Shown in pieces: positions 10,448 to 41,942 of a DNA stretch of 64,000 bases. How positions within the stretch are numbered: the stretch's first letter is position 1; each line of letters starts with the position of its first letter. This DNA comes from Marinobacter sp. es.048 (lineage in GTDB: Bacteria > Pseudomonadota > Gammaproteobacteria > Pseudomonadales > Oleiphilaceae), in contig NZ_FYFA01000002.1 in assembly GCF_900188435.1 (NCBI RefSeq), positions 124,001 to 188,000 on the forward strand, written 5' to 3'. The notes beneath the pieces are model-generated. The model was not told the origin of the DNA, ran no database searches, and saw nothing but the letters and a program-made list of their open reading frames with translations. A program made the translations under genes and the position numbers.

Positions 10448-14146
<3,699 letters not shown>

Positions 14147-15184: not shown

Positions 15185-16384
15185 TTGTTCGACGTTGCGC
15201 TTCTGTCCGTGCCTCTTATGGCGGCCGTTGTTGGTTGGCTGACCAACTGGCTTGCCATCCAGATGTCCTTCTATCCGGTGCACTTCATCGGCGTGGGCCT
15301 GGTCGGGTGGCAGGGGGTGATTCCCCGCAAGGCGGAAAAAATGGCGCATATCTGCATCGACAGGACGCTTCAGCAGTTCGGCGACCTCAACGCCGTTTAC
15401 CAAAAGCTTGAACCCCAGCGCATTGTTGAGCAGGTTATTTCCCAGGTAACCCCACGGATGGATGAATACATCGACGAAGTCATGTATGAGATTCAGCCGG
15501 TTCTCTGGGACAACCTGCCTTTGTTTTTGCGAAACCGGATCTACCAGTGGGCTCGGGAGCAGTTACCGTCGAGGGTAGAGGAGCTGGTAGAGGATTTCGG
15601 TGACGATCTGGATGAGTTGGTAGACCTCAAGGCTCTGCTCAGCCGCGAACTTGAGAAGCATCCGGACATGATGAACCGGATTTTCCAGAAAGCCGGTGCG
15701 GTGGAACTGCAGTCTGTGATCAACCGTGGCGCGATTATCGGTGGCGTCCTTGGTGCTATGCTTGTGCCCTTATGGACACGCTATCCGGAGCCGTGGCTGC
15801 TGCCCCTGGGTGGCTTCGTGATCGGATTCGTGACCAACTGGATTGCTATCAACCTGATTTTCGCGCCGCTCAAGCCCCGGCGAATTCTGTTCTGGAAGAT
15901 CCAGGGTCTGTTTCTGCGCAGGCAGCCAGAAATCAGTGATGTCTGGGCCAGGCTGGTGGCGGAGGAGTTGATCACTGTCGAGAAAGTCGCCGACGCCATG
16001 ATCAACGGCAGCCACGGCGACAGAACCCGCGCGATTATCCAGAAACACCTTCGTCCCTTGCTGGACAACTCTGTCATCATGAAGCTGACAGCGCAGGTCA
16101 CCGTCGGTATGACCGGCTACACCGAGCTCAAGAAAGCCATGAACCAGAAGGCGGTACTGGCGACTCGTGATGTGTTCAGTGACCCGGCCTTCAATCGGGA
16201 GCGGGCGCCAGTGGTGGCCGAAGTTCTGTCCGTCCAGATGAAAGCGCTGAAACCCGATGAATTCCAGGACATCCTTCGCCCCGCGTTCCGGGAAGAGGAG
16301 GTTCAATTGATGATCGTGGGCGGTATTTTTGGCGCCCTGGCAGGGTTGCTTCAGTTCGTCTGCCTGAACTATCTGAATTTCTAG
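15185..16384 (+). CDS. DUF445 family membrane protein
   Basis: A 399-residue protein of the DUF445 family. The N-terminal membrane helix contains the conserved GWLTNWLAIQMSF (G-x2-TN-x-LA-x2-M), followed by IPRKAEKMA. A second copy near residues 210-235 (IGFVTNWIAINLIFAPL) marks the internal duplication, and a C-terminal helix is at about 375-399. DUF445 proteins are inner-membrane proteins of unknown function. The start is TTG at 15185, chosen because it gives the complete first helix; the ribosome site before it is weak. The downstream small membrane gene at 16426 is probably cotranscribed. Confidence 0.88.
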   Translation: MFDVALLSVPLMAAVVGWLTNWLAIQMSFYPVHFIGVGLVGWQGVIPRKAEKMAHICIDRTLQQFGDLNAVYQKLEPQRIVEQVISQVTPRMDEYIDEVMYEIQPVLWDNLPLFLRNRIYQWAREQLPSRVEELVEDFGDDLDELVDLKALLSRELEKHPDMMNRIFQKAGAVELQSVINRGAIIGGVLGAMLVPLWTRYPEPWLLPLGGFVIGFVTNWIAINLIFAPLKPRRILFWKIQGLFLRRQPEISDVWARLVAEELITVEKVADAMINGSHGDRTRAIIQKHLRPLLDNSVIMKLTAQVTVGMTGYTELKKAMNQKAVLATRDVFSDPAFNRERAPVVAEVLSVQMKALKPDEFQDILRPAFREEEVQLMIVGGIFGALAGLLQFVCLNYLNF

Positions 16385-19183: not shown

Positions 19184-19274
19184 GGTGGGCTGGCAGAGTG
19201 GCTTAATGCAGCGGTCTTGAAAACCGCCGAAGGTTAGTAGCCTTCCCGGGGTTCGAATCCCTGGCCCACCGCCA
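19184..19274 (+). tRNA. tRNA-Ser (anticodon UGA)
   Basis: A class II tRNA of 91 nt with a long variable arm. The acceptor stem pairs GGTGGGC with GCCCACC, followed by discriminator G and an encoded CCA. The anticodon loop CTTGAAA within CGGTCTTGAAAACCG reads TGA, decoding UCA. The T arm has GGTTCGAATCC. Its 3' 14 bases (plus four T) are the attachment core for the adjacent island, and the tRNA remains intact after integration. Confidence 0.97.
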
Positions 19275-19278
19275 TTTT
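19261..19278 (+). other. Left attachment site (attL core)
   Basis: CTGGCCCACCGCCATTTT, covering the last 14 bases of the tRNA-Ser plus four T. The identical 18 bases recur at 41925-41942. Only the left copy belongs to a complete tRNA. Confidence 0.9.
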
Positions 19279-20203: not shown

Positions 20204-21091
20204 TTAGGTCCACCCAGAGTTGGAAAAATCCGGCTCCAGTTGCTTCTGTTTTCTTCGTGAAACCGCATGTTTTCTGGCGTAGTCCGAGGGCGTGCACCAC
20301 TCCAATGCGGAATGGGGTCTGACTTGGTTATAGAAAGTCCTCCATGCTTCGATTTTCTCCATGGCGTCGGCCAGTGACAAGAACCAATTTTCATTCAGAC
20401 ATTCCTGCCGGAGTCGTCCATTGAACGATTCTACCGTTGCGTTGTCGGTAGGCTTCCCGGGCCGTGAGAAGTCGATTTCAATGTTTCGCTCATAGGCCCA
20501 GCGATCCATGACCTTGCCGGCAAACTCCGAACCGTTGTCGGTCTTTAGCACCTCCGGGTTGCCCCGGAAGCGCGCAATCGCCGTCAGGGCTTCCTGAACA
20601 TCGTGGCCCTTCAGGCTCTGCCCAACCACAATGCCGAGGCACTCCCTGGTGAACAGATCAATGATCGTCAGGAGACGCAGACGTCGACCATCAAACAGCG
20701 CGTCTGAGACAAAATCCATGCCCCAGATGTGATTGGGATGGTTGGCCTGCTGTAGCGGCTGTCGGTTCTTGGCGGCCTTGTTACGCTTCGGACGCTTGAG
20801 GCGAAGTGACAACCCCTGGTCCCGATATAACCGGTAAACCCGTTTGTGATTATCACGCCAACCCTCCCGTTGCAGCTGGACGTGCACACGCCGGTAACCG
20901 TAGTGAAGCCGCGTGAGCGTGATCTCACGGATCCTCATCGACAGCGCCGACGAGTCCCTCGCCACCGATTGATAGCGATTAGACGCCCTGGAAAACTGCA
21001 AGACCGCGCACGCTTGGCGTTCGCTGACCCCATATCGCTTTTGTAGGTCAGCCACCAGTTGGCGTTTACGAGGCGGTCTCAGAGCTTTTTT
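20204..21091 (-). CDS. IS407-group transposase OrfB (integrase core), made by -1 frameshift
   Basis: DDE-type integrase catalytic domain. Motifs include IWGMDFVSDAL (first D), LKTDNGSEF (second D) and ATVESFNGRLRQECL (catalytic E). The frame is open without stops from the slippery heptamer at 21085-21091 (A AAA AAG on the minus strand) to 20204. It is therefore read as the C-terminal part of an OrfAB fusion after a -1 shift; an internal ATG at 21055 could also give a separate product. The product cuts and joins the IS ends. Confidence 0.92.
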   Translation of the reverse strand, partial: KKALRPPRKRQLVADLQKRYGVSERQACAVLQFSRASNRYQSVARDSSALSMRIREITLTRLHYGYRRVHVQLQREGWRDNHKRVYRLYRDQGLSLRLKRPKRNKAAKNRQPLQQANHPNHIWGMDFVSDALFDGRRLRLLTIIDLFTRECLGIVVGQSLKGHDVQEALTAIARFRGNPEVLKTDNGSEFAGKVMDRWAYERNIEIDFSRPGKPTDNATVESFNGRLRQECLNENWFLSLADAMEKIEAWRTFYNQVRPHSALEWCTPSDYARKHAVSRRKQKQLEPDFSNSGWT

Positions 21092-21345
21092 GCCACCACG
21101 TCCTGAAGCATGGCCTTGTCCAGGCTTAGGTCCGCTACCAGCTTCTTAAGGCGATGATTCTCCTCCTCCAGCTGCTTGAGTCGCTTCAGCTCGGATGGCC
21201 CCAGGCCGCCATACTTCTTGCGCCAGTTGTAGAACGTGGCATCCGAGACGCCCATTTTCCGACAGACTTCCGGGACCGGCGTACCCAGCTCGGCTTGCTT
21301 CAGGGCGAAGGCAATCTGCTCTTCGGTGTAACGGGATCGCTTCAT
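21079..21345 (-). CDS. IS407-group transposase OrfA (helix-turn-helix)
   Basis: An 88-residue protein beginning MKRSRYTEEQIAFALKQAE, with a helix-turn-helix (VPEVCRKMGVSDATFYNWRK) and a C-terminal leucine-zipper-like helix (LKRLKQLEEENHRLKKLVAD). It binds the IS ends. Its 3' end contains the A6G slippery site that feeds ribosomes into OrfB. Confidence 0.93.
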   Translation of the reverse strand: MKRSRYTEEQIAFALKQAELGTPVPEVCRKMGVSDATFYNWRKKYGGLGPSELKRLKQLEEENHRLKKLVADLSLDKAMLQDVVAKKL

Positions 21346-21426
21346 GGCATGATCTCCTGCTCAAGGCTCTATCATGCCGGATTTTCCAGTTTTAAATGGA
21401 CCTAAATTCTGGGGTAGGGTCAGTTC

Positions 21427-21805
21427 ACCATTTTTTCGAAATGAATAGCAAAATTTCCGGTTTCCAGCGTCATGTCGAAGAACAGCTGGCGTAATCGTTT
21501 ACGAGCATTTTACATCTGAGTCGGTCAAAAGAGAGCAGGGTACCTAGACACCTATATTCTTTTAATTTATGCAGTGTGATTAGTGGGGTAAATGTTCGAT
21601 ATCAAACAATTGCTTGGCGGCGACATCGGCACTGGACTACGCTGTTGCTTTATCGTTATTTGGAGAAGGTGCGCCTGGAGTGCAGAGCGTGATCATGAGG
21701 CAGTCAAAGTTCTGTCATCACTGAGGCTTCATTCCAATTGCTGTTATGAAGTGACCGACACCTCCGGTTCTCGAGTTCAGCAACGGTCAGTCACCAAGGA
21801 GTATT
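21427..21805. other. Intergenic stretch before the RES-domain gene, no credible gene
   Basis: 379 bp, A+T-rich on the left. The first ~100 bp (reverse orientation) is the natural upstream region of the zinc-ribbon gene now separated by the IS. A short frame at 21592-21819 has no ribosome site, no family resemblance and overlaps the RES gene start, so it is not called. The RES-gene promoter is presumably here. Confidence 0.5.
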
Positions 21806-23026
21806 ATGGGTCGAGCTAAGCACGATTGGATAGAGGACCAGGAGCGTGGTTGGTCTATTCTAGGCACCTTCGTTTGCTCAGACTGTGTTGGAGACGAATT
21901 TCTTGCAGAGGTCGTGAACACGAATGCATGTGCGACTGAATGTTCCTATTGTGGCATATCTACGACCAGCGCAATCGCAGCACCGTTCGAAGAAATAATG
22001 GTCCACGTGTCGAGCGCGTTTTTTCAACACTTTGCAGAACCTGCTACAGCTGGATTGCCTAGGGATTCTGGTGACTGGGTAGGTGAAAACCTAATTATAG
22101 ATACTGAGGACGCGCTTCTCAGTTTCGGTTGGCCATGCAACGATGACTTATTTCAAGATGTTTGCGGGTCGTTCGTTAACGACGATTGGGTCCAGTGCGC
22201 AAATGGGCACTGGCTTGGGAGTCACGAGCATGAGCGCCGTCATTATGCTTGGAGCGCATTCGTAGAGAAAACGAAACACCGGACCCGGTACTTCTTCTCC
22301 GATTCGAATGACACAGATTTCATTGCTGAGGACGAATATCCGCCGCAGCAGATTCTGAGAATAATAGGTCAAGATATAGAGAACTTTGACCTCTTGAAGG
22401 AGATTCCTGCCGATACACAACTATTTCGAGTTCGTGAACGCTCTTCCGATCAATCTTTTGAAACACTTGAACAAATGGGGCCTCCTCCACCTACTCTTGC
22501 TTCTGCGGGTCGCATGAATCCTCCAGGAATAAGCTATGGGTACTTTGCAATGGAAAGGAGTACCGCTGTATTCGAGGTCGTCGGTGCTCCGCCAACAGGG
22601 GTAAGTATTGGGACATTCCGAACAGTCCGACCATTACTGGCCGTTGACTTTACTTTCATTCCACAACCGCCATCGATTTTCGATACCGATAACAAGCTTA
22701 CAAGAGATGCCCTCATCTTTATGAGCGAGTTTGTAGCGAGTATCTCAGATCCAGTTGCGAAGGATGGAAAGCAACACATTGAATATGTTCCGTCCCAAAT
22801 TGTTTCTGAGTACCTTGGCCAAATACTGAAGACTAGCCGTGGCAGGGTAATAGATGCCGTAATCTATCAAAGCACACTTAATCCTGACGGTATTAATGTG
22901 GTTGTTTTTCCTCCACGAAGTGTATTCAAAGGTTGGGATTCACTTTTTGGACTGGTGCAAGTGGAGCATGAGGTCTTTTCCAATTGGAGGGCATTTGATG
23001 ATTTCACGAAGGGAGACACCTTATAA
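21806..23026 (+). CDS. Zinc-ribbon/HEPN-associated N-terminal domain fused to RES domain (putative NAD+-degrading toxin)
   Basis: A 406-residue protein. Residues about 1-195 resemble the HEPN/RES N-terminal domain: two CxxC knuckles (C24-C27 and C46-C49), then helical segments ending in VEKTKHRTRYFF. Residues about 200-390 form a RES domain with R208/R210 (LFRVRE), GRMNPPGISYGYFA, E257 in AVFEV, the EYVPSQIVSEYL helix and the YQS strand. RES toxins such as MbcT or Res phosphorolyse or hydrolyse NAD+, usually with an Xre antitoxin. No Xre gene is present here, so control may come from the N-terminal domain. The start has AAGGAG at the right distance. It is followed by an attC-like element. Confidence 0.8.
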   Translation: MGRAKHDWIEDQERGWSILGTFVCSDCVGDEFLAEVVNTNACATECSYCGISTTSAIAAPFEEIMVHVSSAFFQHFAEPATAGLPRDSGDWVGENLIIDTEDALLSFGWPCNDDLFQDVCGSFVNDDWVQCANGHWLGSHEHERRHYAWSAFVEKTKHRTRYFFSDSNDTDFIAEDEYPPQQILRIIGQDIENFDLLKEIPADTQLFRVRERSSDQSFETLEQMGPPPPTLASAGRMNPPGISYGYFAMERSTAVFEVVGAPPTGVSIGTFRTVRPLLAVDFTFIPQPPSIFDTDNKLTRDALIFMSEFVASISDPVAKDGKQHIEYVPSQIVSEYLGQILKTSRGRVIDAVIYQSTLNPDGINVVVFPPRSVFKGWDSLFGLVQVEHEVFSNWRAFDDFTKGDTL

Positions 23027-23096
23027 CAACCGGCTGCAAAGCGACCGATTTTCCGCAGGTTGGCGACTCCAAACCGGCGCATTAGCCGGGCGATAA
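23024..23096 (+). repeat. attC-like imperfect palindrome after the RES gene
   Basis: Starting at the RES stop codon, the 73-bp stretch opens TAACAACCGGCTGCAAAGCG and closes CGCATTAGCCGGGCGATAA. Its outer arms are partly self-complementary (AACCGGCT against AGCCGGGC), and its ends resemble attC R-sites in a degenerate form (ATAAC / ATTAGCC rather than GTTAGGC). This suggests, but does not prove, that the gene once travelled as an integron cassette. Confidence 0.35.
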
Positions 23097-23129
23097 TCAG
23101 TTTGACGGTTAAATTAGTGAGGATTTCAA

Positions 23130-23546
23130 GTGTCCCAGAGGCTTTTAGCCAAAATCAATCAGGGTTGTCATGACACTGAGAAAAAGCTTCTTAACCTCAT
23201 AGACAATGCAACTCGCCTAGAAAATCAGAAAATATTGAAGGCTGCGCAACAAAGACTAAAGATCGTTTCTCCTGCTAAGTACCGGCAAACCATCGGCCCA
23301 ATACACGTTCGAGATCCGATGGGTAGCAGAAAGTGCTACTGCTGTATTCCCGCTTCATTGGAGCGAATAGCAGATGATATCGTTTCTGGTAACGTGCATT
23401 ACGAAGCGTTGTTGTGTGATGCCTGTTGGGATGAGGATATATCAGTAGCATGGGGCACATATGGCCCGTTTGGTAAAAAATTGATAGATAAATTCACTTG
23501 GCAAGCGCTATGTACTGAAAGAGGCGACTGGAAGTTTGGAGTATGA
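23130..23546 (+). CDS. Small cysteine-rich protein of unknown function
   Basis: A 138-residue protein starting at GTG 23130 with GAGGAT upstream. The N-terminal half is helical and charged. The second half has C69/C71/C72 (KCYCC) and C96-x2-C99 (CDAC), spaced as in a treble-clef or zinc-ribbon fold. I do not recognise the family. It lies between the RES protein and the STAND nuclease, about 100 bp and 160 bp from them, so an independent transcript is possible. Confidence 0.6.
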   Translation: MSQRLLAKINQGCHDTEKKLLNLIDNATRLENQKILKAAQQRLKIVSPAKYRQTIGPIHVRDPMGSRKCYCCIPASLERIADDIVSGNVHYEALLCDACWDEDISVAWGTYGPFGKKLIDKFTWQALCTERGDWKFGV

Positions 23547-23705
23547 GGTATGAGGTATGACTAACTAGTGCAGGCAAGGCTGCGCCCACAGCGGCGAACG
23601 GCTAATTTCGACTGAAGCTAACGAAATCAAGTAAACCTCTTGCAGAACCCACTCAGAGTTCTAAGTTCATGAATTTAAAGAACCCCCGAGAAGACTTAAG
23701 AAGCA

Positions 23706-26700
23706 ATGATAGACATTAACTTTACAAACATTCGCGCTTTTGATGGTAGTCGGAACTCCGGCTTTGAAGAGCTAGTCTGCCAGTTAGCGCATTTAGAGAA
23801 ACCGGCAAACGCTAAGAGGTTCATAAGAAAAGAGGGCGCAGGTGGAGATGCAGGGGTCGAGTGCTACTGGATTCTGAATGATGACAATGAAATTTGCTGG
23901 CAGGCCAAGTATTTCACGGGAGAAATGAGTTCCTCTCGCTGGGGTCAGCTTGATGAGTCATTTAAAACAGCCTTGTCCAAGCATCCCAATATGAGCAACT
24001 TTATTGTTTGCTTGCCGCTTGATAAGACCGATAGTCGAAAGACGGGCAAAGGCGGTAAGACTGTTACTTCCGTGGAGGACGAGTGGAGGAAGCTCGTTGA
24101 GAAATGGACCAAGTTTGCTGCTGGACGAACGATAAAGTTCGAGTTTTGGGGTAAACATGAACTTACGACCATGCTCGCCGTTGATGATCCGAGGTATTCG
24201 GGGCGGCTTCTTTATTGGTTTAACGAACCGGCACTGCGTTCAGAGACTCTTCGCCATCTGGCGCTAAAGAGTAGGGAGACTCTGGGTGAACGGTTCACGC
24301 CTGAGTTTCACGTAGATTTGCCGATCGCCAGACAGCTTGATGGGCTTTGCGCCAATGACGGCTGGTGGTCGGAAATCTCTGCTCAGAAAGCAGCACTTGA
24401 AGAAAAGTATGACAAGTTTATCTGGGTTGTAACTGGCGACAAGATTGAAGATGTTAGTGGAATTGATCTAACGGGGCTGGAGAGCGCATATACTGAGTTT
24501 CTTGCTCGACTAACGGCTTGGCTGAAGAATAAACCTGCCAAATATGATCTGATCGCGCTGAAACAGGCGCTGCAAAATATAGTTGAGCCGTTTCGGGAGC
24601 TTGGCGACCTGATCGAAGGGAAGACATTTAAGGAAGAGTCTGGCAGTAGAGATTTCCGTCAACATTTCGGAACCCTTTACAGCTCTCTCAGAGAAATTCA
24701 AAGATTTCTTCAATCCCGTAAAGCTCATGCATACGAAATAGGGGCAGGACTCCTCTACGGCGAAGCGGGAATTGGGAAATCACATCTTCTATGTGATCTG
24801 GCACTTCACAGGGCCAATGAGAGTCTGCCAACTATTTTCTTACTCGGGGCACAGTACGGCGGCGGAAACCCTCTCGATTTTGTGAGGCAAAGCCTCGACC
24901 TACATCAATTTAGCAATAATCAGGTTTTAGCCGCAATCGATGCGGCCGGAGAGGCTAGAAAACGCCAGGCATTGATCGTAATCGATGCCATTAATGAAGG
25001 ACCTTACCGTGATCAATGGAGGGACTTTATAAGAGGTTTTTTGTCCGATATCTCAAGGTTTGAAAATGTCTCACTACTGATTAGCTGCCGCTCGACCTAT
25101 TGCGGGTATATGTTGCCGGATAGTGTCGATGAAACTTGTCTCATTCAATTTCATCATCAGGGGTTCCAGGGGTTTGAGCACCGCGCCGCAGAGAAGTATC
25201 TCTCTGCACAGGGGATTTCCAAACCTAGTGCACCGATTCTTGCGCCAGAATTTTCAAATCCGCTTTTCCTGAAAGCCTGTTGTAAAGCTCTCAGAAGCTC
25301 AGGACAGAGCTCGTTCCCCAAGGGACTGAGTGGACTGACACAGTTATTCGAGTTCTACCTGAAAAGTGTTGAAAAGACGATTGCAGTGAGGAAGCAGTAC
25401 AGCCCTGCGGAAAAAATCGTGCAGAGTGCGTTGGCCGGATTTTCTTCGAGGCTTTATCCCGATTATCTATCGGGAATTCCTATCGGTGATGCACGCAAGC
25501 TCGTTAATGATTTTGATATCTCTCCCCAAAAGGGCGGAGATGATCTTTTCGGTCTTCTTCTACATGAAGGGGTCCTTGCCGAAGATATTTCCTACGAAAA
25601 CGATAAGGACGGTCATCCCGTCATACGTTACACCTATGAAAGGTTTAGTGACGTGCTCGTGGCTCGGCAAATAATCGCCGGCCATGATAGCAAAACCGTT
25701 GCAACGATATTCGATGAAGAGGAGCCTCTCGGCCAGATATTGGGGGATCGAGGTGTTTATCAAGTTGCCGGTATACTCGAGGCTTTGTTCATCGCTATTG
25801 CCGAGAAGTTCCAGATTGAACTCATCGATCTAATTCCCGAGGGCGTTAAGGTTTCACCTTGGGAAATCAGGGAGCTATTTGAAAATACTGTTCTCTGGCG
25901 CTCACCCGATTCCTTTTCTGACAGAACACTCGAAATTTTGAACAACAATGTTGGTACTACGGAATATTCGAGTCCGGCTTTAGATATTTTGCTTAAGCTT
26001 TCTACCGAACCAGACCATCCGTGGAATGCGGAGCGTCTTCATAGAAACCTGAAAGACAAAGAGATTGCAGAGCGTGACCATTTCTGGTCTATCCACGTTG
26101 CGAGGGGCGATAGCTCAGAAGAGGATGGGCATGAGTCGACTGAGCGGACACTCATTGAATGGGCCTGTTTTGGCGATATTCGTAATGCCGAAGATGAGCG
26201 AATTCGTTTATGCGCAATTGTTTTGTTGTGGTTTCTGACAACATCGAACCGTAAGGTAAGAGACTGCGCTACAAAGTCGCTCGTGCGTCTGTTTGTTGAA
26301 AGAACCCAGATTATCGAAGGCCTGTTTTCCGGATTCTGTGATGTCAACGATCTATATCTTGTTGAGCGGCTGTACGCGGCTGTTTACGGCGCCTTATGCA
26401 ATATCGAGGAACCTACAGTTATTACTGATATTGCAAAGCTTGTGTTCGATAAAATCTTCGCGGACGGGCAGCCTATCCCTCACATCCTTCTGAGGGATTA
26501 CGCCAGGGGCGTGCTCGAAATCGCGCTATCTAAAGGCCTGTTGCCTAAGGGAATAGAGCCTCAATCATTCAGACCTCCATACAAGAGTTCCTGGCCCCTG
26601 GACAATCCAACGAAAGAGGAAATCGATGAGCTCATAGGCGATGACGATTATTCAGATATCAAGAGTTCCTTGATGGGATTTCCGGGCGATTTTGGGAACT

Positions 26701-28208
26701 ACACAATGAGTTGTGTTCATGACTGGTCTTGCACACCCATAGATCAAGATGAGATTCAAAATGGCTACGAGTTAAAGGTCCGGTTTGCCGAAGAGTTACT
26801 CGATGGCGACCTTAAAGAGGAGTTTCTCGCATTCATCGGGCCGGAGGAACGAGAGCCTGTCGATATCAAAAAGTGGCTGGCTCAAGTAAAAGGCGAAGTC
26901 GAGCGCGAGCGGCCTTCTGATGAAGATATTCGAAGAAGAAGGGATGAGCGCGAAGCGTTTTTGGACAGAATTAGAGAAAGTTTAGATAGTCAAGGACAGG
27001 AAGATTTACGGTGGCTAACCGGCCTCGCTAATGATCGACCTGCGGCCTTTAGCCGCAAATGGGCGCAGCACTGGGTATGCAAGCGCGCCTATGAATTGGG
27101 GTGGAATAAAGAACTGTTCTCATCGTTTGAAAGTTCTTGTTCGCGCGGGCGCGGCGGGGGTTCCATGGAGCGCGTCGGCAAGAAGTATCAATGGATAGGG
27201 TTTCATGAATTTCTTGCTCACTTATCAGACAATATGCACTGGATCGATCGGGAGTATAGTGATGTTGAAGATCGAATTTACTATGGACCATGGCAACTCC
27301 ACAGACGTGATACTGATCCAACTAATTGGCTTCGAAAGAATGGCGAGTACCGCACGTTCCACAATGAACAGACGACGTGGTGGCAACCCTACCGCTTTCC
27401 TATCGATCAGTTGCAAGAGTTAGAAGCTCAGAAATTCTATCTATGGGATCGGAAAAAGGTACCGGATTTTCCTCAACTCCTGACCGTTAGTAAATCTGCT
27501 GGAGAACAAGAATGGTGTGTTCTAAGGGGATTTTGGTCGCAGAAACAAAGGAAATTAGGGGAAAATAGTAAGGCCCCGTATCTCGATTGTTGGTTCAGGA
27601 TAAATTCCGTCATAGTGACTGAAGGCGACTTTGACAAAATTAAAGAGATGGTCTCCAACGAGAGTTTGATTGATCCCGATACTGTCTCGATTCCTAAAGT
27701 TAGCGATGGATTTCTCGGTGAATATCCATGGCATCCTGTTTACGACCAGCTATCCAATTGGCAGGAAGAGGGCTCTGACGTTCGCAGTCTTATTTCCGAA
27801 AAACATATGGTCCCTGTGTCGGAATATTCGTGGGAGCGGGGAAACGTCGATCATTCAATAGATGAAACGTTGTCGATTTACCTGCCAGCCAAGGAGTTGG
27901 TTAATGAACTTGGAATGGAAAGAATGCCAAATGAGTTCGGCAGCTGGAGGGTGGGAGAAGATATTGTTTTCACTGACCCGAGCGTTGAAGAATACGGACC
28001 AAGCTACGCCTTGATGCGGACAGATGCACTGAACGAATGGATGGCAGAGAATAATATGAAGATTCTCTGGCTCATCGGAGGGGAAAAGCAGCTTTTCGCT
28101 TCGGATTTTGGATCGAGCGAGTTCTTTGGCCGCCTTGTCTACTCCGGCGTCTATTGGTTGGAAAATGATCGCCCCGTTGGGAGTTTGCATTTTCGGAAAG
28201 AGGAATAA
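23706..28208 (+). CDS. 1500-residue STAND NTPase with N-terminal PD-(D/E)XK nuclease (Avs-like antiphage protein)
   Basis: Three regions are visible. Residues 15-70 carry a restriction-type nuclease core like Mrr/Cap4: E21/E22, D48 in GAGGDAGVE and Q66-x-K68 in CWQAKYF. Residues about 340-620 form a STAND/NACHT-like ATPase with Walker A GEAGIGKS (352-359), Walker B ALIVIDAINEG with D427, and SLLISCRSTY as sensor. Residues about 640-1500 are long helical (HEAT/TPR-like) and then mixed sequence, where such proteins recognise a phage protein. Known Avs proteins oligomerise on sensing phage terminase or portal and then degrade DNA. Membership of this class is inferred from architecture. The specific Avs type (Avs4 has an Mrr-like effector) cannot be settled here. 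Confidence 0.78.
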   Translation: MIDINFTNIRAFDGSRNSGFEELVCQLAHLEKPANAKRFIRKEGAGGDAGVECYWILNDDNEICWQAKYFTGEMSSSRWGQLDESFKTALSKHPNMSNFIVCLPLDKTDSRKTGKGGKTVTSVEDEWRKLVEKWTKFAAGRTIKFEFWGKHELTTMLAVDDPRYSGRLLYWFNEPALRSETLRHLALKSRETLGERFTPEFHVDLPIARQLDGLCANDGWWSEISAQKAALEEKYDKFIWVVTGDKIEDVSGIDLTGLESAYTEFLARLTAWLKNKPAKYDLIALKQALQNIVEPFRELGDLIEGKTFKEESGSRDFRQHFGTLYSSLREIQRFLQSRKAHAYEIGAGLLYGEAGIGKSHLLCDLALHRANESLPTIFLLGAQYGGGNPLDFVRQSLDLHQFSNNQVLAAIDAAGEARKRQALIVIDAINEGPYRDQWRDFIRGFLSDISRFENVSLLISCRSTYCGYMLPDSVDETCLIQFHHQGFQGFEHRAAEKYLSAQGISKPSAPILAPEFSNPLFLKACCKALRSSGQSSFPKGLSGLTQLFEFYLKSVEKTIAVRKQYSPAEKIVQSALAGFSSRLYPDYLSGIPIGDARKLVNDFDISPQKGGDDLFGLLLHEGVLAEDISYENDKDGHPVIRYTYERFSDVLVARQIIAGHDSKTVATIFDEEEPLGQILGDRGVYQVAGILEALFIAIAEKFQIELIDLIPEGVKVSPWEIRELFENTVLWRSPDSFSDRTLEILNNNVGTTEYSSPALDILLKLSTEPDHPWNAERLHRNLKDKEIAERDHFWSIHVARGDSSEEDGHESTERTLIEWACFGDIRNAEDERIRLCAIVLLWFLTTSNRKVRDCATKSLVRLFVERTQIIEGLFSGFCDVNDLYLVERLYAAVYGALCNIEEPTVITDIAKLVFDKIFADGQPIPHILLRDYARGVLEIALSKGLLPKGIEPQSFRPPYKSSWPLDNPTKEEIDELIGDDDYSDIKSSLMGFPGDFGNYTMSCVHDWSCTPIDQDEIQNGYELKVRFAEELLDGDLKEEFLAFIGPEEREPVDIKKWLAQVKGEVERERPSDEDIRRRRDEREAFLDRIRESLDSQGQEDLRWLTGLANDRPAAFSRKWAQHWVCKRAYELGWNKELFSSFESSCSRGRGGGSMERVGKKYQWIGFHEFLAHLSDNMHWIDREYSDVEDRIYYGPWQLHRRDTDPTNWLRKNGEYRTFHNEQTTWWQPYRFPIDQLQELEAQKFYLWDRKKVPDFPQLLTVSKSAGEQEWCVLRGFWSQKQRKLGENSKAPYLDCWFRINSVIVTEGDFDKIKEMVSNESLIDPDTVSIPKVSDGFLGEYPWHPVYDQLSNWQEEGSDVRSLISEKHMVPVSEYSWERGNVDHSIDETLSIYLPAKELVNELGMERMPNEFGSWRVGEDIVFTDPSVEEYGPSYALMRTDALNEWMAENNMKILWLIGGEKQLFASDFGSSEFFGRLVYSGVYWLENDRPVGSLHFRKEE

Positions 28209-28311
28209 CTCATCGGCCTAACAGTAGATCGAAGAGCTGCGCTTAGAAAACGGTCTATAGAGAGGAGCAGGTCAATAGGTCACAGTATTCGGCTCGAATA
28301 AGATTAAGATT

Positions 28312-28863
28312 ATGGAAAAATTTATAGAATTTGAGGATATTACGAAGCCAGATGAGCGACATGGGCTGATTGATGATTTAACCGGCACAAGGTTAACTCT
28401 TGAGTCTATGTATCAGGCTCTAGATGAAATAAAGCTAGTGGGGTTCGTTCCGGAGGAGATACAGTCTCAATTCAATGTCACGAAGAATCTAACTATATAT
28501 ACTTGGTACTCCTATTCGCTAGATCCGGTCGCTCAGCTAAAAACCTATATTCTCATTGAGCATGCGCTAAAACTAAAATTTGATAAGGAAAATTGGTCGT
28601 TTCCAAAGTTGATAAGAAAAGCCATAAGCCGGGGTTGGATTAAAGATAGCGGGTTCTCACATATAGAAGTTGATCCTGAAGACGACACAAAATATGTGCG
28701 AAAAATGATTGGGATTTTACCCAGTCTTCGAAATTCAGCTGCTCACGGTAGTAATGGTCTACACCAGAATGCTGTTGGTCATATCAAGATCTGCTCAGAG
28801 TGGATTAATCAGCTTTTCAGCCAAGAGGATGAGCATGACCAAGCAGGGAAGGCAGATGAGTGA
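28312..28863 (+). CDS. HEPN-like protein downstream of the STAND nuclease
   Basis: A 183-residue, mostly helical protein. The segment QLKTYILIEHALKLKF followed by LPSLRNSAAHGSN (R140-x4-H145) matches the HEPN RNase signature R-x4-6-H in its usual place on the last helices. HEPN proteins act as RNases or nucleotide-modified toxins in defence and toxin-antitoxin systems. It starts 103 bp after the STAND gene. An A+T-rich composition sets it apart from the core genome. The HEPN call rests on a short motif and helical context, and other DUF4145-like families share it. Confidence 0.62.
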   Translation: MEKFIEFEDITKPDERHGLIDDLTGTRLTLESMYQALDEIKLVGFVPEEIQSQFNVTKNLTIYTWYSYSLDPVAQLKTYILIEHALKLKFDKENWSFPKLIRKAISRGWIKDSGFSHIEVDPEDDTKYVRKMIGILPSLRNSAAHGSNGLHQNAVGHIKICSEWINQLFSQEDEHDQAGKADE

Positions 28864-29069
28864 CTCGCGACGTGGCAAATACTCGATACAGTAGAAGACT
28901 GATACCTTTAAATTAAACGCAGATATAAATGCATTGGTAATGAGCGAAAATTAGATACTCTGAAGAAGTTAGAACTCAGATGGTGAGGCGGGTTCCGGAA
29001 GCGCAAAACTTTACAGGGGCGGTTTGAGATTTCTGCGAAATTCAATTGACCCTAAATATTTTAGCCCGG

Positions 29070-32000
29070 TCACCGCATTCCCGCTGAGGAGTAAACGCTT
29101 TGGCCTCCACCATAGTAGCTGGTCATTAGATGACGAAAAGCGGCATCGCACTTCTCGTTGTATATGTCTTCATCGAAGCTGTCCGGCAATCCCTGGTCGA
29201 AAACGATCTCCAGAGTCCGGCGCACATCGCCCTTAGCTTGAGCCTTTTTACGCCAGTCCAGAACTAACTTCTCTCTCTTGAGGGTATCCAGAAGCTCTCG
29301 GCACATGACCTTCACCTGCGCCACCTCCTTCTTGGTCATCTCCGGGGCAGGTCTGGTAATGATGTCGAAAAGCGCGAGCTCTTCCTCGCTGAGGCCCTCG
29401 CGGATTGCCCGCTTGTCTTCTTCCTGTAGCTCCTCAGTAAATTCCATTAGTTCCTGAAAGAAGGCCTCGATGTTCATACTGCCGGAGTTGTAATTGTCGA
29501 TCAGCCTCTTCAACTTTTCCATGAAGTCACTGCGGGTGGGGTTCTTTGCCATCATACTTTCTAGCTTCTGATTCAGCAGGGCTCGCAGCCTTTCGGTTTC
29601 TGTGCGCTTCTTGCCCTTACTGAATTTCGCCTTGAGCTTTTCGAAGTCTATCTGGCTTAGGTCGAACAGTTTGTCTTCGTATGTATCCTCAATGACATAG
29701 GGAACCGGTGCTACGGACCCATCGAGCAGGTCGTCTACATCTCGCATTACCTGTGAGATATCGACTTCCGGTTCCAGTGCTTTGATCTTCTGAGCGAGAA
29801 CGGATAGCAGCACAGCATCGGGAGCGAGATCGTTGGCAGCAGGATCTGGCAAGATGGCCCGGTAAACTCTGGATGTGGCTCTGGCGAGGCTCAAAAAGCC
29901 TTTCTTGGTCTCTTCGTTCTCCAATAGTTTCTCCACTGCATCGTCTAGCAGCGCCACTTTGTCGAAGCCACCAGCAGCCTTAATCGCTTCAGCGTCGATC
30001 TGCTTTTCAGTCAGGAAGGTAATAGCTCTGGCCAGCAGATGTCTGAGGTACTCGACCAGCTCGGATTTTTGCTGAATCGGGGAATCAGTACCCGATCCGC
30101 CTTCACCTCCATAGGGTGGATGGTCGTCCTTGGCCTGAGGGGCACCACCATAAATGGCCAGGGCTTCCTGTAGTTTTCGGAAAACTCCTGCGTAATCGAC
30201 GATCAAGCCCGCTTCCTTGCCAGGATACTTACGGTTGGCCCGGGCGATGGTCTGCATCAGAGTGTGGTTCTTCATCGGCTTGTCGAGGTAGATGGTCGAG
30301 CAGGAGGGTACATCGAAGCCGGTGATCCACATCGCGCAGACGAACACCAGCCTCAGCGGGTCGCTGGCATCCTTGAACTTCTCGTCGAGGTCTTCTTCTA
30401 CCATTCGCTTTCGGTGGGGCAGAATGTCGAGCCCCCTGTCCGCCAGATCTTTCACTTCGTTCTGGCCCTGAGAGACGATCACCGCCATGTCGGTCTGATC
30501 CAGAACCTTGATCTTGTGCTTGAGCGACTCCTGCTGCTCCAAAGGGGCGGACTTAAGGTGGGCCTGTAGTTGGGTCAGGTATTCCCTCAAGTGAGTTTTT
30601 ACCTTGTCGTACATCCTCACAGCGGTGGCCTTGTCGATGCAGACCATCATCGCCTTGCCCTGATGACCCCTGCCGACGAAGTGTTGAACGAGATCCTCGG
30701 CGATGGCTTCCAGTCGGTCGTCACGAGTGATGAGGTGGTATTCACGGCCGAATACGCGCTCAACCTTCTTTTCCTGATCCTCGTCCAGTTCGGCGTCTTC
30801 CAGCAGGCGGGTCAAATCATCGTTTAGATTTTCGTTGATCAGTTGGAGCTCGGGGATACGGTTCTCGTAGTAAAGGGGAACCGTGGCGCCATCGGCGATG
30901 GACTGGCCGAAGTCATAGACCGAGATGTAATCGCCGAATACCTCCTTCGTCTTCTCCTCGCCAGCCATTAGTGGCGTGCCGGTGAAGCCCAAGAAAGCGG
31001 CATGGGGCAGAGCCGTCCGCATGTTCATGGCTAAAGTGTCGTACTGCGAGCGGTGCGCCTCATCGGTAATGACGATGATGTCCTGTCTGTCGGAGAGCTT
31101 GGGGTAGGCCTCGCCAATCCTCGTGCCAAACTTCTGGATCAACGTGAAGACGTATCGGTGATCTTCATTAAGTAGCTGCTTGAGATGGGCGCCGCTCTCT
31201 GCGTGGGCCTCCACCTCGTTGACCGCTCCTGTCGCGGCGAAGGTTTTGTAGATCTGCTCGTCCAGCTCATTCCGGTCGGTGATGATAACGAAGGTCCAGT
31301 TGCCCGGAATCGTGCGGTGGATCTTCTGGGTGAAGAACACCATCGACAATGACTTACCCGAGCCCTGAGTGTGCCAGAATACCCCTAATCGACCAGCCTC
31401 TCCGGCAGGGCGATCCTTGATCCGCTGCAGCTCAGCAATGGCTTTGTTCACACCGAGGTACTGGTGGTTCTTTGCGATCTTTTTGAGCGTGCCGCCTGCT
31501 GCCTCCTCAAACACCGTGAAATTCTCGACGATGTCCAGCAACCGCTCAGGCTTGGCGATGCCGCGAATGGCGGTCACTAAGGACACCACCCCTTTCTCAC
31601 CTTCGTCATTGATGCGCTTCCACTCGAAGAGGTGCTCCCAGGGGGAGAAGGTACTGCCCACCACCGTCTCTGAACCGTTGGATAGCATAATTACCATGTT
31701 GTAGGTGAACAGCTGGGGGATGACCGAGCGATAGTCCGTCAGGTTGCCATCATAGGCGGCTTTTAGGGTCTTATGGCTGGCTTTCAGCTCCACGAACAGC
31801 AGCGGCAAGCCGTTGACGAAGCCGACCAGATCCGTGCGCCGGGTATGCAGCTCACCTTGTACCCAGAACTGCGAAGTCAGCAGGAAGTCGTTCTGCTCAG
31901 GTTGGTTCCAGTCGATTATCCGTACCGTTTCGATAGCAGTGCCACCATCTTCATCCCTAACTTCGACCTTCACGCCATGCTTGAGGAGCTGGTAGATCTC

Positions 32001-32291
32001 GAGGTTGGCGTTCACCGGCAGCAGGGTCGCGCGATCGCGGGTCAGCTCTTCGATGGCCTTCTCCAGAGCATCAGTCGGAAGCTCGGGGTTGAGCATCTCC
32101 AAGGCCACCCGCAGCCGAGGCACCAGTACCACATCCCGTTGGGTCAGCCGTCCCTCGCTCGATACCGTTCCCGACCATTCCCCGTAGAGATTAGCGGTGT
32201 CCCAGCCCAGGTCGCCGAACAGCTCGATGGCGGGCTGCTCGACCAGGGCATCCTCGGAGTAGGCATAAGTGTGGGATGGCGGAGGTGTCAT
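29070..32291 (-). CDS. hsdR: Type I restriction enzyme, R subunit (HsdR)
   Basis: A 1073-residue endonuclease/translocase. The N-terminal PD-(D/E)XK nuclease has D154 and E168-x-K170 (LLFVELK). The SF2 helicase core has Walker A TQGSGKS (308-314) and DEAH at 410-413 in ITDEAHRSQYD, with the later motif VI-like QTIARANRKYPGK. The C-terminal ~250 residues bind the MTase. HsdR cuts unmodified DNA after ATP-driven translocation. The start overlaps the end of hsdS by 4 bp. Length and motif order are complete, with no frame damage. Confidence 0.97.
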   Translation of the reverse strand: MTPPPSHTYAYSEDALVEQPAIELFGDLGWDTANLYGEWSGTVSSEGRLTQRDVVLVPRLRVALEMLNPELPTDALEKAIEELTRDRATLLPVNANLEIYQLLKHGVKVEVRDEDGGTAIETVRIIDWNQPEQNDFLLTSQFWVQGELHTRRTDLVGFVNGLPLLFVELKASHKTLKAAYDGNLTDYRSVIPQLFTYNMVIMLSNGSETVVGSTFSPWEHLFEWKRINDEGEKGVVSLVTAIRGIAKPERLLDIVENFTVFEEAAGGTLKKIAKNHQYLGVNKAIAELQRIKDRPAGEAGRLGVFWHTQGSGKSLSMVFFTQKIHRTIPGNWTFVIITDRNELDEQIYKTFAATGAVNEVEAHAESGAHLKQLLNEDHRYVFTLIQKFGTRIGEAYPKLSDRQDIIVITDEAHRSQYDTLAMNMRTALPHAAFLGFTGTPLMAGEEKTKEVFGDYISVYDFGQSIADGATVPLYYENRIPELQLINENLNDDLTRLLEDAELDEDQEKKVERVFGREYHLITRDDRLEAIAEDLVQHFVGRGHQGKAMMVCIDKATAVRMYDKVKTHLREYLTQLQAHLKSAPLEQQESLKHKIKVLDQTDMAVIVSQGQNEVKDLADRGLDILPHRKRMVEEDLDEKFKDASDPLRLVFVCAMWITGFDVPSCSTIYLDKPMKNHTLMQTIARANRKYPGKEAGLIVDYAGVFRKLQEALAIYGGAPQAKDDHPPYGGEGGSGTDSPIQQKSELVEYLRHLLARAITFLTEKQIDAEAIKAAGGFDKVALLDDAVEKLLENEETKKGFLSLARATSRVYRAILPDPAANDLAPDAVLLSVLAQKIKALEPEVDISQVMRDVDDLLDGSVAPVPYVIEDTYEDKLFDLSQIDFEKLKAKFSKGKKRTETERLRALLNQKLESMMAKNPTRSDFMEKLKRLIDNYNSGSMNIEAFFQELMEFTEELQEEDKRAIREGLSEEELALFDIITRPAPEMTKKEVAQVKVMCRELLDTLKREKLVLDWRKKAQAKGDVRRTLEIVFDQGLPDSFDEDIYNEKCDAAFRHLMTSYYGGGQSVYSSAGMR

Positions 32292-33559
32292 GCGGCTTCT
32301 ACCTCCTTGTCTTCGGGCATGGGAATGTCGGATACATCGACCTCACCGGAGATCAGCTTGGGGATGAGGAGGTCGCGTTGGGCGCGGAGGTTAGCGTTTT
32401 TCCTCTCCAACCTGTGAATCAGGCTTCTCATGGGCGCGACCGAATCATCGAAATGAGAGAGAATGTCTCCTTGCGGCACTATGATCACCGCCTCTTTGAA
32501 GTCAGAAGCCTTAACGGCCGGGTAAGCAGCCCCCGTCGCTCGATTGACTAAGTAGCTAACAAACTGGTCAGCTCGGACATACTGATATAGGTAGTGTTTG
32601 GAAATGCTCTCCGCTCTCAATACTGCAAAACCAGTTGAGGCAACTGTATCTTTCTCCGGTTCAATGATCATGGCACATGAGCGCCGGTTAGGCCTGACAC
32701 ACGACCACAATACATCGCCCGATCTTACGATTCGTCTTGCACGACCAGGAGCGTTAGAGAATTGCATCGTCTCAGCTTTATCAATTCTTCCCGGCGATAC
32801 AGAGGCGATATCAATGTAATGGACATCATCCGGTGCAGATTTCGGCTTAATCGCCTCTGGGTTAATCTGAGCAACATTACCAAGCTCCTGAACCTCCCAC
32901 CCCTCAGGAATCTCCCCAAGCTCGCTCTCCTTGAACCCCATCTCCTCATGCCCAGGGAAGCGGAAGTAGACGAACCACTCTTCGTAAAGCCGTTGGGCGA
33001 TCTCTTCGAGGATCTCGATACGGCGCGTATTGTTATCGATGAGGTCGTCGTAGGCGGAGAGAATGGAGGCAATTCTTTGCTGAACAGCCAGAGGTGGTAG
33101 TGCAATCTCAATGTCTTTCAGAAGCACTATTGTGAAGGCGGGCTGTGAAGAGCCGATTGTGCAGCGTTTCAGCTCGGCTTTGCCTGATGGAGAAAGGAAC
33201 CAGTAATACAGGTAGTCGCTTATGATCTTATCAAATTTACGAAACCAAGTTAGATTCCCATCTTTGAAATAAAACCGCTCTCCGGGCTTAACCACATAAG
33301 GAACCCCCAGTGTTCCAACTGACGTAAGAAGTAGATCTCCAGCAGAGGGGGCGCCATTCTTAGCGCAGACTTCTGAAAACCTTTTCTCAGAGATAAAGAG
33401 ATCTGTTGTTACTTTCAAAGCGCCGTTGTGTTTCTCAATGATCTCCTTGCCTCTGTAAAAAGGCACACCACTTTTTGTGTACTCATGGGCACGAATTCTT
33501 CTGCTGGAAGATATGTCACAGATTTCTTTCAGTCGAAAGCTGGGCCACGTCTGGATCAT
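32288..33559 (-). CDS. hsdS: Type I restriction enzyme, specificity subunit (HsdS)
   Basis: A 423-residue HsdS with two target recognition domains (about residues 5-150 and 215-375), each followed by a long conserved helix: the central one after [12 protein letters not shown] and the C-terminal one with [18 protein letters not shown]. The two TRDs are unlike each other, so the recognition site should be bipartite and asymmetric; its sequence cannot be read from the protein. It is translationally coupled to hsdM and hsdR (4-bp overlaps on both sides). Confidence 0.95.
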
Positions 33560-35115
33560 ACGGACTTCTCCATGACCTTAACCACACTCTCTCCAATCAG
33601 GTCTTCCAGTTCCCTCGACTCCGCGTTCAGCACCTCCAACTCCTCGGCCAGCTCCTCCAGTCGCTCTGTAAAGTCCACATTCTCGGCCTCTCTCGCTGCA
33701 GCTCCAACGTACCGCCCAGGATTTAGTGACCAGCCCTGAGCCTCGATCTCGGCCCGAGTCGCTACCTTACAAAACCCAGGCACATCGGCGTAGCCCTCGC
33801 CTAAGCCCTTCTCAATCAGAAGCGGCTCGCTGCCCTGATCGAGCTCTACGGCTTCACCACGATGTAGGCGGACGACATTAGCCAAGAACTCGATCTGCTC
33901 TGGTAGCCAGTCTCGATGCGCCCGGTCGATCTGGTGGTAGAGGTGGCGGGCGTCGATGAACAGCACCTTGTTGCCACGATCGGTCTCGCTCTTGGCCCGG
34001 TCGAAGAACCACAGGGTGCAGGGCAGCGTGACGGTATAGAAGAAGTTCGGCCCTACTGAGACGATCACATCAACAGCACCGGACTCGATCAGTCTCTGGC
34101 GGATCGCCTGCTCGCTGCCGCGGGCATCACCCGCCGAGTTGGCCATGACAAAGCCAGCCCGGCCATTAGGCTTCAAGGCTGCGTAAAACAGCTGGATCCA
34201 GAGGTAGTTGGCATTATCAGTCCTGGGCATCCCGAGGCGGAACCGTGGGTCGCCTTCCAGGCGCTCTTTGTCCACTCCAGAGACATTGAATGGGGGATTG
34301 GCCATCACGAAATCGAAGAAGCCTTCACCTTTGCTGTCGATTGTCCCATGCGGGTCCTCGTAGTACGTATTGGATACCCGCACATCTCCGGATAGGCCAT
34401 GCACCGCGAGGTTCATCTTGTTGAGGTTGACGGTGGTCTGATCCTTCTCGGTGCCGAAGATCGAGATTTCGTCCATTGCCGTCTTGTGGTGACGCTCCAC
34501 GAAGTCTGCCGAGTGGACGAACATGCCGCCTGACCCACAGGCCGGGTCGAAGATGCGTCCGTGGTAGGGCTCGATGATCTCGACGATTAGCTTGACGATG
34601 GATTCTGGGGTATAGAAGACGCCGCCTTTCTGACCTTCCTTGAGGGCGAAGTTACCGAGGAAATACTCGTAGACCTTGCCAAAGGCGTCGCCCGATAGAT
34701 TCACTGGGCCCAGCTGTTTGAGCAGTTCCTGCAGCACCCAGTTGTCCAGGGCCGTGTAGTTACGGGGCAGCGCACCTTTCAGGTCGGGATTCTCATCCTC
34801 GATGGCCTTCATGGCATCGTTGATGGCCTTGCCGATATTGTCGCCCTCGGTGAGGGACTGCAGATAAGAAAAGCGGGCGGTTTCAGGGAGAAAAATTACG
34901 CCCTCGGCCAGGTAGTCATCTTTGCTCACCTTTCGGCGGCCACCGGATCCCACCAGACCGAGCTTCTCCTCGGCTGCGGCATACTTGTTATCGGCGTACT
35001 TGAGGAAAATCAGGCCCAGCACTGGGGCCGAGAACTCAGCGGGCTTGAGGCCGGTGTTGGCCCATAATTGGTCGGCGGCTGCCCACAGGCGTTTCCCTAC
35101 ATCTCCATTAACCAA
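33556..35115 (-). CDS. hsdM: Type I restriction enzyme, methyltransferase subunit (HsdM)
   Basis: A 519-residue N6-adenine methyltransferase. The N-terminal helical domain (HsdM_N) includes [13 protein letters not shown]. The SAM motif is [11 protein letters not shown] (189-199) and the catalytic motif is NPPF (273-276). It modifies host DNA and, with HsdS and HsdR, forms the restriction complex. First gene of the hsdM-S-R operon. The upstream region has a possible -10 (TATAGT) overlapping a 13-bp palindrome at 35165-35177. Confidence 0.97.
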
Positions 35116-37049: not shown

Positions 37050-37120
37050 TCCTTTGCACTAGGTCTATGCCTAGGCCTTTGCTTCTACCAAGGTGTCCGG
37101 TTTAAATGGGGGCTACTACA

Positions 37121-39112
37121 GCGCAAGGCAGGGGCAGCCCGGCGCATTGCATCACCTAATCCCTTCGGTGAACGGGGCCACGAGTCACAATTTCGAGGTT
37201 TGAAATATTCCAGAGTATTCAGCCAATGCTTTGCTGAGTGCTCCTCTACTTGAGTCGGATTTGTTTCTGCCCAGTCCCGAATGGCTGAGGCAATCGGGCT
37301 GGCGTCCAGAGTTCGCTCCAGTCCGTCCTGGCGGGCGGCGTTGAATTGCTCCATGAAGGCTTCGGGCGCGTGGTTCATGGCTTTGGCCACGGCCATGCCG
37401 AGATAAGCGAATTCCGCCAGACGCGGGCGTTGTTCTGCCGGCAGTGTCATGGTTGGCAGGTATTCAAGGGCTTTTGCCGCAATATCCAGCAGGCCACCGA
37501 GAATACCGGCCTGATTTTTTTCGTAGTCAGCGTCCAACTTATCCTTAGGGCTCGCATCAGTTATCACCGGCAGCTCGATACTGATTGCCCGTGATACCGC
37601 GTCTTGCTGAGTAATGGCAGCCACTATGCCGTTGAGGATTGCTGGGCGCTTGAGGGTAATAACGATCTCGTCACTGTCGCTGTATAGCTTGCGCTTGGCG
37701 AAACCTCCGCCGGTCGCAATAACGCATAGCGCATCCTGAATGGGTGCAGGCAGGTAGCTCACATTCTCGATACTGATTACGTGGTTTGTTCCGCCGGTTA
37801 CATAGAGATCTTCGGCAGACTTTGGCACTGCTCTCAGGTCGGCGGCGTTGGGATCAATCAGCCTTCTTAGCGCGGCCTGGGTTGTGCTTTTTGCGCACCC
37901 TTGTTCACCGAACATTTCCAGTATGGGGAAGGGTGTATCTGTTCTCAGGCATTCCACCAGCCAGGCAATCACCAGGATTCTCTGGTTTGGCGCAATGTTG
38001 GCGATTTGCCATAAAGGCTCGATGCTCCCGCCGGAAATCGGGCGAGGTAGCGCCTGGGCGCTCTCAGATCGGGCAAACATCACCGGAGCGTCGTCATGGA
38101 TTGCCCACTTTCCAGGCATGATGACTAAAGCGGTGCTTTGACCGGATTCTGCCAGATCCAACCAGTGCTGGCCTGATACCGTTGCAGCGCGTACGTGCAC
38201 TGGGCGGTGCTCCTGCATTGCGATACCCTCCAGAGTCATCCTGGCTTCGCGCAAAGCCTGATCCCTTACAGCCTTTTCGTTCTGCTCATAAAAAGCAGCT
38301 GTTAGCCAGTGCCTGAAGGCCTTACCGGCAATCGGTCGGACCTCCCCAGAATCTAAATGCCGGGCGTAAGCAATGTCGTTGTGGTCGTGGAACATCTCAT
38401 TGAAGGTTTGAACGAAAGCAACAATCTTGTCGGATTGCGCCTGGCGTTCGTCATCAGCTTGCTCTGGGATCTGCGTCTCTGCCTTTGCAGCGGGGGTTAT
38501 CCCATCCTCAAACTCTGCCAGCACAGCATCAGATCCGAATTCCTGATAAATATCACTCCAGTCTTTTGCCGATTTTGGGCATGTCCAGTTACATCCGGAA
38601 TTTTGGCCAGCCGACTTGCCAGGCTTGTCATTGTCTACTGCGGCAATCAGGTGCAAATTCGGATTAAGTTTGGCAATTGCAGATGCATTGCCGGGTATGG
38701 TCTGTTCACCGACCCCACACGCCACTGGTAGCCCCATTGCCTCATGCAATCGGTATCCATCAGCAAGTCCAGCACAGACGATCATTTTGCCGGTCATGGT
38801 TTCCAGATCGGCCATCTTGAAACCAATCGGTGTGCAAGATCGGGCTGTTTTGGCACCCTTGGTCGCAAACTTGTTGTTTGGCTTCTCGTTTGGATTACGC
38901 TGAACAGGCTCAGAGAGAATTCGCTCATGCCCGCAGGGTTCTCCCGTAGCAATCAGGTAAAGAGGTCGGAATACAGCATCGCCCTCCCACGGTCCAATTG
39001 GTTTGTCGTCACTGCTGAAACCGAAAACTTTAGTCCGTTTGACGGTGCAGCCTAGACATTCCATTGCCTGCCAGTCGATTGCTTTCTTGGTGAGGTAAGG
39101 ATGAGCTTTCAT
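37121..39112 (-). pseudogene. Toprim/ATPase replication protein (P4 alpha-like primase-helicase), interrupted by an IS2-like element
   Basis: The first 664 codons are intact. With the piece at 35575-35796 the ancestral protein would be 737 residues. A Toprim-like primase region occupies about residues 105-200 (CAGLADGYRLHEA and AAVDNDKPGKS; the usual first Toprim glutamate is not evident). A helicase-like ATPase has Walker A GEQGCAKST (402-410). Such proteins prime and unwind DNA for replication of satellite phages and integrative elements. The IS truncates the protein after residue 664, beyond both recognisable domains, with 11 IS-encoded residues to a stop. The truncated product could retain activity, but the native C-terminus is lost. 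It overlaps alpA by 4 bp. Confidence 0.85.
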
Positions 39113-41621: not shown

Positions 41622-41810
41622 GGCTGCTGATTCCAATTTCGACGACTTAAGCGTTAAACCAAGACAAGTGCGGTAAAGCTCTAATCAATGGCCTATTAGA
41701 AGCAGGGAGCTAGACGGATGAACCGACCAAAGCCAGTGGATGACCGTGAAACCTTAAGTCGTTCTGTTTTAACGAACCTGACTACCTACCTATCAATAGG
41801 ATTGTCATTG

Positions 41811-41840: not shown

Positions 41841-41924
41841 GGACGCTGGGGCACGCCCAGGAGTGCTGGGTATTCTGCAAAAAAATTCGTAAAGAAACCG
41901 ATGCTTACAGACATTTTGGAAGGT

Positions 41925-41942
41925 CTGGCCCACCGCCATTTT
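41925..41942 (+). other. Right attachment site (attR core)
   Basis: CTGGCCCACCGCCATTTT, identical over 18 bp to the tRNA-Ser 3' end at 19261-19278. No tRNA body precedes it, so it is the partial copy left by integration. Confidence 0.9.

Follow-up and report, generated by a model that had tools for sequence, protein, structure and literature searches.

An avs2 Gene and a Putative HEPN Ribonuclease Gene Side by Side in a Marinobacter Defense Island: Probably Not a New Two-Part System

Introduction

The nuclease effectors of Avs1–Avs4 are described in PMC12931631 as cutting phage and host DNA upon recognizing phage terminase, portal or another phage protein. HEPN genes, as set out in PMC3710099, lie beside restriction systems in many clades and are proposed there to form a second line of defense; PMC11090510 makes a like argument for McrBC relatives with HEPN RNases. 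Integrons as stores of phage-defense genes are also on record (PMC12409362).

Here we compare with these systems a locus in 64,000 nucleotides of the Marinobacter sp. es.048 genome (the whole stretch analyzed, hereafter the window). A first-pass annotation, made from the sequence letters, had reported an Avs-like nuclease-STAND protein followed by a HEPN-like protein, both genes A+T-rich and on a mobile island, and had suggested that the second gene may add an RNase or self-control arm, a combination it did not recognize as a described type. The two open reading frames are as it gave them, 1500 aa (23706–28208) and 183 aa (28312–28863), both on the + strand and exactly 103 bp apart. Literature searches, which are thin on subscription journals, returned nothing on Avs2 with a HEPN partner and nothing joining Avs2, accessory and STAND NTPase. 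Among papers on AVAST, STAND and HEPN, judged by their titles and the opening parts of their abstracts, none concerned an Avs2-HEPN pair.

Identity of the Large Protein

By sequence comparison, the product of the gene at 23706..28208 (+) is Avs2 (AVAST type 2), an already described type; the earlier label of Avs-like nuclease-STAND protein was right and can be refined to Avs2 itself. The PADLOC model PDLC02164 matches it over its full length (1622 bits, residues 1–1499), though the score against NCBIfam NF041813 is slightly short of the cut-off (941.8 bits vs. 1000). The Avs2 entry PDB 9o4e aligns to residues 191–1493 (E = 2.4e-131), with no sequence alignment for residues 1–190, and the C-terminal sensor region matches Avs2 along its whole extent.

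The predicted N-terminal effector, a PD-(D/E)XK nuclease, occupies approximately residues 1–175 (23706..24230), with the motif codons of D48 at 23847–23849, Q66 at 23901–23903 and K68 at 23907–23909. A nuclease fold at this end, which the first-pass annotation had proposed to check, is supported by model and structural matches. Both Walker motifs of the NACHT/STAND NTPase are intact, Walker A (GEAGIGKS, residues 352–359) at 24759..24782 and Walker B (D427) at 24984..24986, all of these features being on the + strand; the Pfam NACHT model matches residues 349–483 (E = 1.8e-4), below its cut-off. In an alignment of the window protein with 114 homologues, D48, Q66, K68, G352, G357, K358, S359 and D427 are invariant (115/115 rows), and the three nuclease residues also appear in 15/15 rows of a more diverse set. 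With this conservation, the motifs, already picked out in the first pass, are not due to chance.

The Small Protein and Its Family

The gene at 28312..28863 (+) looks like one for a putative HEPN-family RNase (183 aa) that is portable on its own. The R-x4-H motif noticed earlier consists of R140 (codon 28729–28731) and H145 (28744–28746), both found in 120/120 gap-free rows of an alignment of 121, as is N141, the polar residue that follows the arginine in the superfamily pattern Rx4-6H. The second acidic residue of the superfamily, typically within Ex3[KR], is E83, present in 121/121 rows along with Y63; position 87 is K or R in 108/121. A helical-bundle fold is predicted with moderate scores, and the top fold matches are HEPN toxins from HEPN-MNT pairs. 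The HEPN assignment, together with the fold check suggested for it, thus held up at that level. No MNT nucleotidyltransferase gene is adjacent: the upstream neighbor is avs2 and the downstream one, on the opposite strand, is HsdR.

Pfam HEPN models gave no match to the 183-aa protein at or above cut-off. The family to which it belongs counts 434 proteins (E up to 1e-5), the best 120 of which all lack Pfam domains, and identity is as low as 26% among the matches listed. A search of PDB sequences with the family profile yielded a single match (E = 0.63), dismissed as chance. We know of no biochemistry for this family, which counts in favor of a HEPN domain that is inactive or structural, such as a regulator binding RNA or nucleotides, and PMC3710099 describes HEPN families in which the motif has been lost. 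Such a reading is highly improbable, given that R, N, H and E83 are kept without exception in the rows above despite listed members down to 26% identity.

Genomic Island and Gene Junction

The island spans about 22.7 kb from a tRNA-Ser gene to a distal repeat. The tRNA gene (tga; ARAGORN; 19184–19274, +) is its attachment site, and the repeat at its 3′ end (19252–19278) recurs at 41916–41942 (27 nt, 85% identity, last 18 nt exact), just beyond the tyrosine integrase of the island (40323–41636, −; Phage_integrase, Arm-DNA-bind_3 and Phage_int_M domains). These features bear out the mobile island of the first-pass annotation, and the A+T-richness it remarked on is seen in a G+C content of 47.4% for avs2 and 40.8% for the HEPN gene vs. 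56.1% for the window outside the island. The difference between the two genes supports their independence. Type I restriction-modification (RM) genes, identified with Pfam, follow on the − strand (29070..35115; HsdR 29070–32291, HsdS 32288–33559, HsdM 33556–35115). Transposase domains were also detected with Pfam in the island, in genes which we take to be of IS3 type, and two further open reading frames (37085–39112, 675 aa; 39421–40326, 301 aa) matched nothing in Pfam (E up to 1). Rfam, run over 19000–42200, returned the tRNA alone, plus one sub-threshold match overlapping it.

Upstream of avs2 lie a RES-domain gene with HEPN/RES N-terminal domain 1 (21806..23026, +; PF18870, E = 7.4e-18; PF08808, E = 3.3e-12) and a 138-aa open reading frame (23130..23546, +) for which searches against Pfam, PADLOC and NCBIfam (E up to 1) came back empty. 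On one strand and immediately before avs2 (21806–23546), the two are possibly a toxin-type pair.

Within the 103-bp junction (28209..28311) no promoter- or terminator-like match was found and, with both genes on the same strand, their co-transcription is possible. In blastn comparisons, the main match of an avs2 relative (locus L081) covers 23594–28261 of the window, and the matches of two HEPN relatives begin at 28300 (L046, 28300–28843) and 28311 (L003, 28311–28839). The join is thereby narrowed to about 40 bases between the two homologies, and each gene has its own history. A conserved control RNA flanking the HEPN gene, considered as a candidate, was rejected, as the flanks are not conserved with the two nearest readable relatives. 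A separate 41-bp match to L081 (83%), possibly a worn-down recombination site, pairs window 23055–23095, in the gap that separates the 138-aa reading frame from the RES gene, with L081 16449–16489, among the small genes of that locus.

Co-occurrence of the Two Genes Elsewhere

Both genes are rare. The HEPN gene was found in 5/398 genomes of the phylum (the genome of the window counted, the other four matches being weak) and in 4/124 of the genus (two partial). For Avs2 the figures, again with the own genome counted, are 5/369 for the class, 11/390 for the order and 2/124 for the genus. In two same-genus genomes the HEPN frame is shortened, to 136 aa (L047:9571–9981) and 113 aa (L048:9360–9701), and these are perhaps decaying copies.

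A pattern-based scan for HEPN relatives, using one genome for each of 84,980 species, picked out 65 stretches, and 25 proved to be relatives. The Avs2 profile matched at none of these 25 loci (at two, L018 and L025, just 408 and 8 bases lie upstream and the upstream gene is out of view), leaving the locus in the window as the only one with Avs2. It was also absent at five more weak or partial HEPN relatives (L047, L048, L054, L055 and L079). In the other direction, no HEPN gene (E up to 1e-3) was found at 23 Avs2-like loci read with their flanks, 18 scoring at least 308 bits (two sharing one contig) and five weaker (104–174 bits). They include L081, from the same order, whose Avs2 is 86% identical to that of the window. 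The plasmid side of Avs2 is covered for 7 of 75 matching records, and the nearest metagenomic HEPN relatives (P0002–P0005 and P0007), on contigs of 990–3094 bases, are outside the neighborhood survey. Neither gene was confirmed in viral contigs; the HEPN gene had no match in phages and one weak match in plasmids, and Avs2 had partial matches alone in two phage records.

The avs2 and HEPN genes are inherited separately. Given 0/25 and 0/23 loci, together with the blastn boundaries, a recurrent Avs2-HEPN two-gene type was rejected. The first-pass annotation had itself named beforehand the lack of co-occurrence in other genomes as what would count against its undescribed combination; there was none in the loci searched, and this part of it is not supported.

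Neighbors of HEPN Relatives

In four of the 25 loci (L004, L007, L020 and L021) the HEPN gene lies within or right after a type I RM operon on the same strand, and in L018 directly before McrB and McrC genes. The HEPN gene of L007 starts 2 bp after HsdS and has a 4-base overlap with the next gene, that of L018 overlaps its follower by 4 bases, and those of L020 and L021 overlap HsdS by about 23 bases; the last two loci count as one origin because they are close relatives. In a Methylotenera MAG, a gene for an Avs3a-like STAND protein of 2153 aa (L006:1454–8549) is situated 85 bp upstream of the HEPN relative, so a STAND-HEPN neighborhood is not unique to the window.

These placements bear on a reading in which the window holds a functional two-gene variant, where Avs2 would cut DNA first and a co-transcribed HEPN RNase would back it up, set free once Avs2 has been triggered or disabled, after the PrrC-PrrI model. 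It is consistent with the short gap, the shared strand and the absence of a terminator-like site between the genes; with L007, L018, L020 and L021, where ends overlap or abut in or beside type I RM or McrBC genes; with the Avs3a-like neighbor in L006; and with the HEPN-RM coupling argued in PMC3710099. However, the pair occurs in the window alone among the loci read, the 86%-identical Avs2 of L081 does without a HEPN gene, and the kinship of L020 and L021 leaves about three independent RM cases. We regard a working link of this kind as doubtful.

The remaining 19 loci have other, ordinary or uninformative neighbors. At or near the HEPN relative in six of them (L003, L019, L011, L005, L016 and L015) is a DUF4145, DUF3800, DUF2971, DUF2326 or HNH gene, and four (L012, L013, L014 and L017) have housekeeping-like surroundings, which count against a strict link to defense. 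This variety of neighbors supports the independence of the HEPN gene. In the latter four, which are Porticoccaceae-like genomes, the HEPN relative occupies a similar chromosomal place, with an alpha/beta hydrolase gene beside it in L013, and for this reason looks resident rather than mobile in that lineage. Two distantly related bacteria have a DUF4145 gene immediately before the HEPN relative (L003:7259–7909, 88 bp away; L019:7312–7971, 26 bp), and DUF4145 is itself among the HEPN families listed in PMC3710099.

The neighborhoods also speak to whether the HEPN gene could be a toxin-antitoxin-like element, unrelated to Avs2 and controlled by an RNA or small protein encoded nearby. A protein with an invariant catalytic motif should need control, and its nearest folds are toxins of HEPN-MNT pairs. 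Against this, flanks are not conserved, homology to the relatives at 78% and 70% identity being confined to the gene, and inspection by eye of the neighbor lists of all 25 loci (open reading frames of at least 90 aa) revealed no constant partner gene. This makes such an element quite unlikely.

Integron-Like Settings

In L081 (G942:C32:245500–262050) the avs2 relative, at 7459–11979 (−), is surrounded by small genes on its strand; the coding strand of the locus has three attC-like sites, and the Avs2 stop is followed by one of these after about 160 bp. In L046 one such site lies at the end of the HEPN gene, and in L003 one lies upstream of the gene that precedes its HEPN relative. When each of the three loci was resampled four times by dinucleotides, no site appeared. 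Our home-made relaxed scan is rough, as it also matches L008, L021, L024 and L082, as well as L005, L007 and L026 (these three on the opposite strand alone), and gave up to 3 matches in resampled versions of several loci. At 4.5 kb, the L081 gene, in what is likely an integron array, would be large for a cassette of this kind. Integron integrases above the family cut-off were found in the genome of L081 (394.4 bits) and in that of L046 (G803, same genus; 418.9 bits; HEPN relative at C5:24841), on contigs other than those of the Avs2 and HEPN relatives, and none above cut-off was found in the genome of the window or of L003. In the window itself, the relaxed scan, which would miss worn-down sites, found no attC-like site in 21000–29100; a strict scan marked a single place, 15832–15973, outside the island, and a second scan none. 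Taken together, the attC-like sites and integrases suggest that Avs2 and the HEPN gene circulate as cassettes; they are no proof that an integron built the window.

Discussion

The probable explanation, and the one we favor, is that two separate one-gene defense units stand side by side in an integrated defense island. Since none of the other genomes searched yielded the pair, the locus is probably not a new two-part Avs2-HEPN system. In our weighing, independence takes the greater part, a working link a minor one and other readings the rest.

Our comparisons show family identity, conserved catalytic residues, predicted folds and separate inheritance of the two genes; we infer catalytic activity, the trigger, a role in phage defense and an Avs2 that would work without the HEPN gene. 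The Avs2 of the window has the parts needed for the published Avs mechanism. Its C-terminal part would most likely bind a conserved phage protein, as published for Avs; the NACHT ATPase would then assemble, and the N-terminal PD-(D/E)XK nuclease would cut DNA, so that the cell is killed or arrested and the infection ends. The HEPN protein would most likely be a small endoRNase that cuts cellular RNA through R140 and H145 once released or triggered, and its gene a self-travelling abortive-infection arm acquired by several DNA-directed defense systems.

More tentatively, the HEPN family could act as a movable RNase module, joined to unrelated DNA-directed systems (type I RM, McrBC, Avs3 and Avs2) as a common second-line arm and kept silent by the DNA-level system until that is beaten; the window would then hold a fresh Avs2 version put together from two integron-type cassettes. 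If the HEPN gene were such a shared arm, one small protein would be relevant to several systems. The analysis contributes an Avs2 from a Marinobacter island. It also delineates an as yet unmodelled HEPN family whose catalytic residues are invariant and whose members recur next to defense systems of different kinds.

Among known systems, the large protein is closest to Avs2 (PDLC02164, 9o4e), which it resembles in its full-length model match, its nuclease-NACHT-sensor layout and all motifs; plasmid Avs2 relatives share just 28–33% identity with it among the matches listed. The N-terminal nuclease of Avs4 (PDB 8dgf) is a near match; beyond that domain the protein belongs to Avs2 rather than Avs4. 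The small protein resembles HEPN RNase toxins (HEPN-MNT 7ae9 and 7ae2; 2hsb; AbiV 9bj7) in a predicted helical bundle at approximately residues 43–175 and in the Rx4H motif, but identity is 6–13% in the rows compared. Its relatives in L004, L007, L020 and L021 (type I RM) and in L018 (McrBC) are placed like the RM-embedded HEPN genes of the PrrC-PrrI concept in PMC3710099, whereas the gene in the window adjoins avs2 and the nearby RM genes are on the other strand. The nearest readable relatives of both genes sit in integron-like settings, like the defense cassettes of chromosomal integrons (Darracq 2025 and Kieffer 2025, as cited in PMC12409362); the window differs in that no attC-like site was found across 21000–29100 and no integron integrase above cut-off in its genome.
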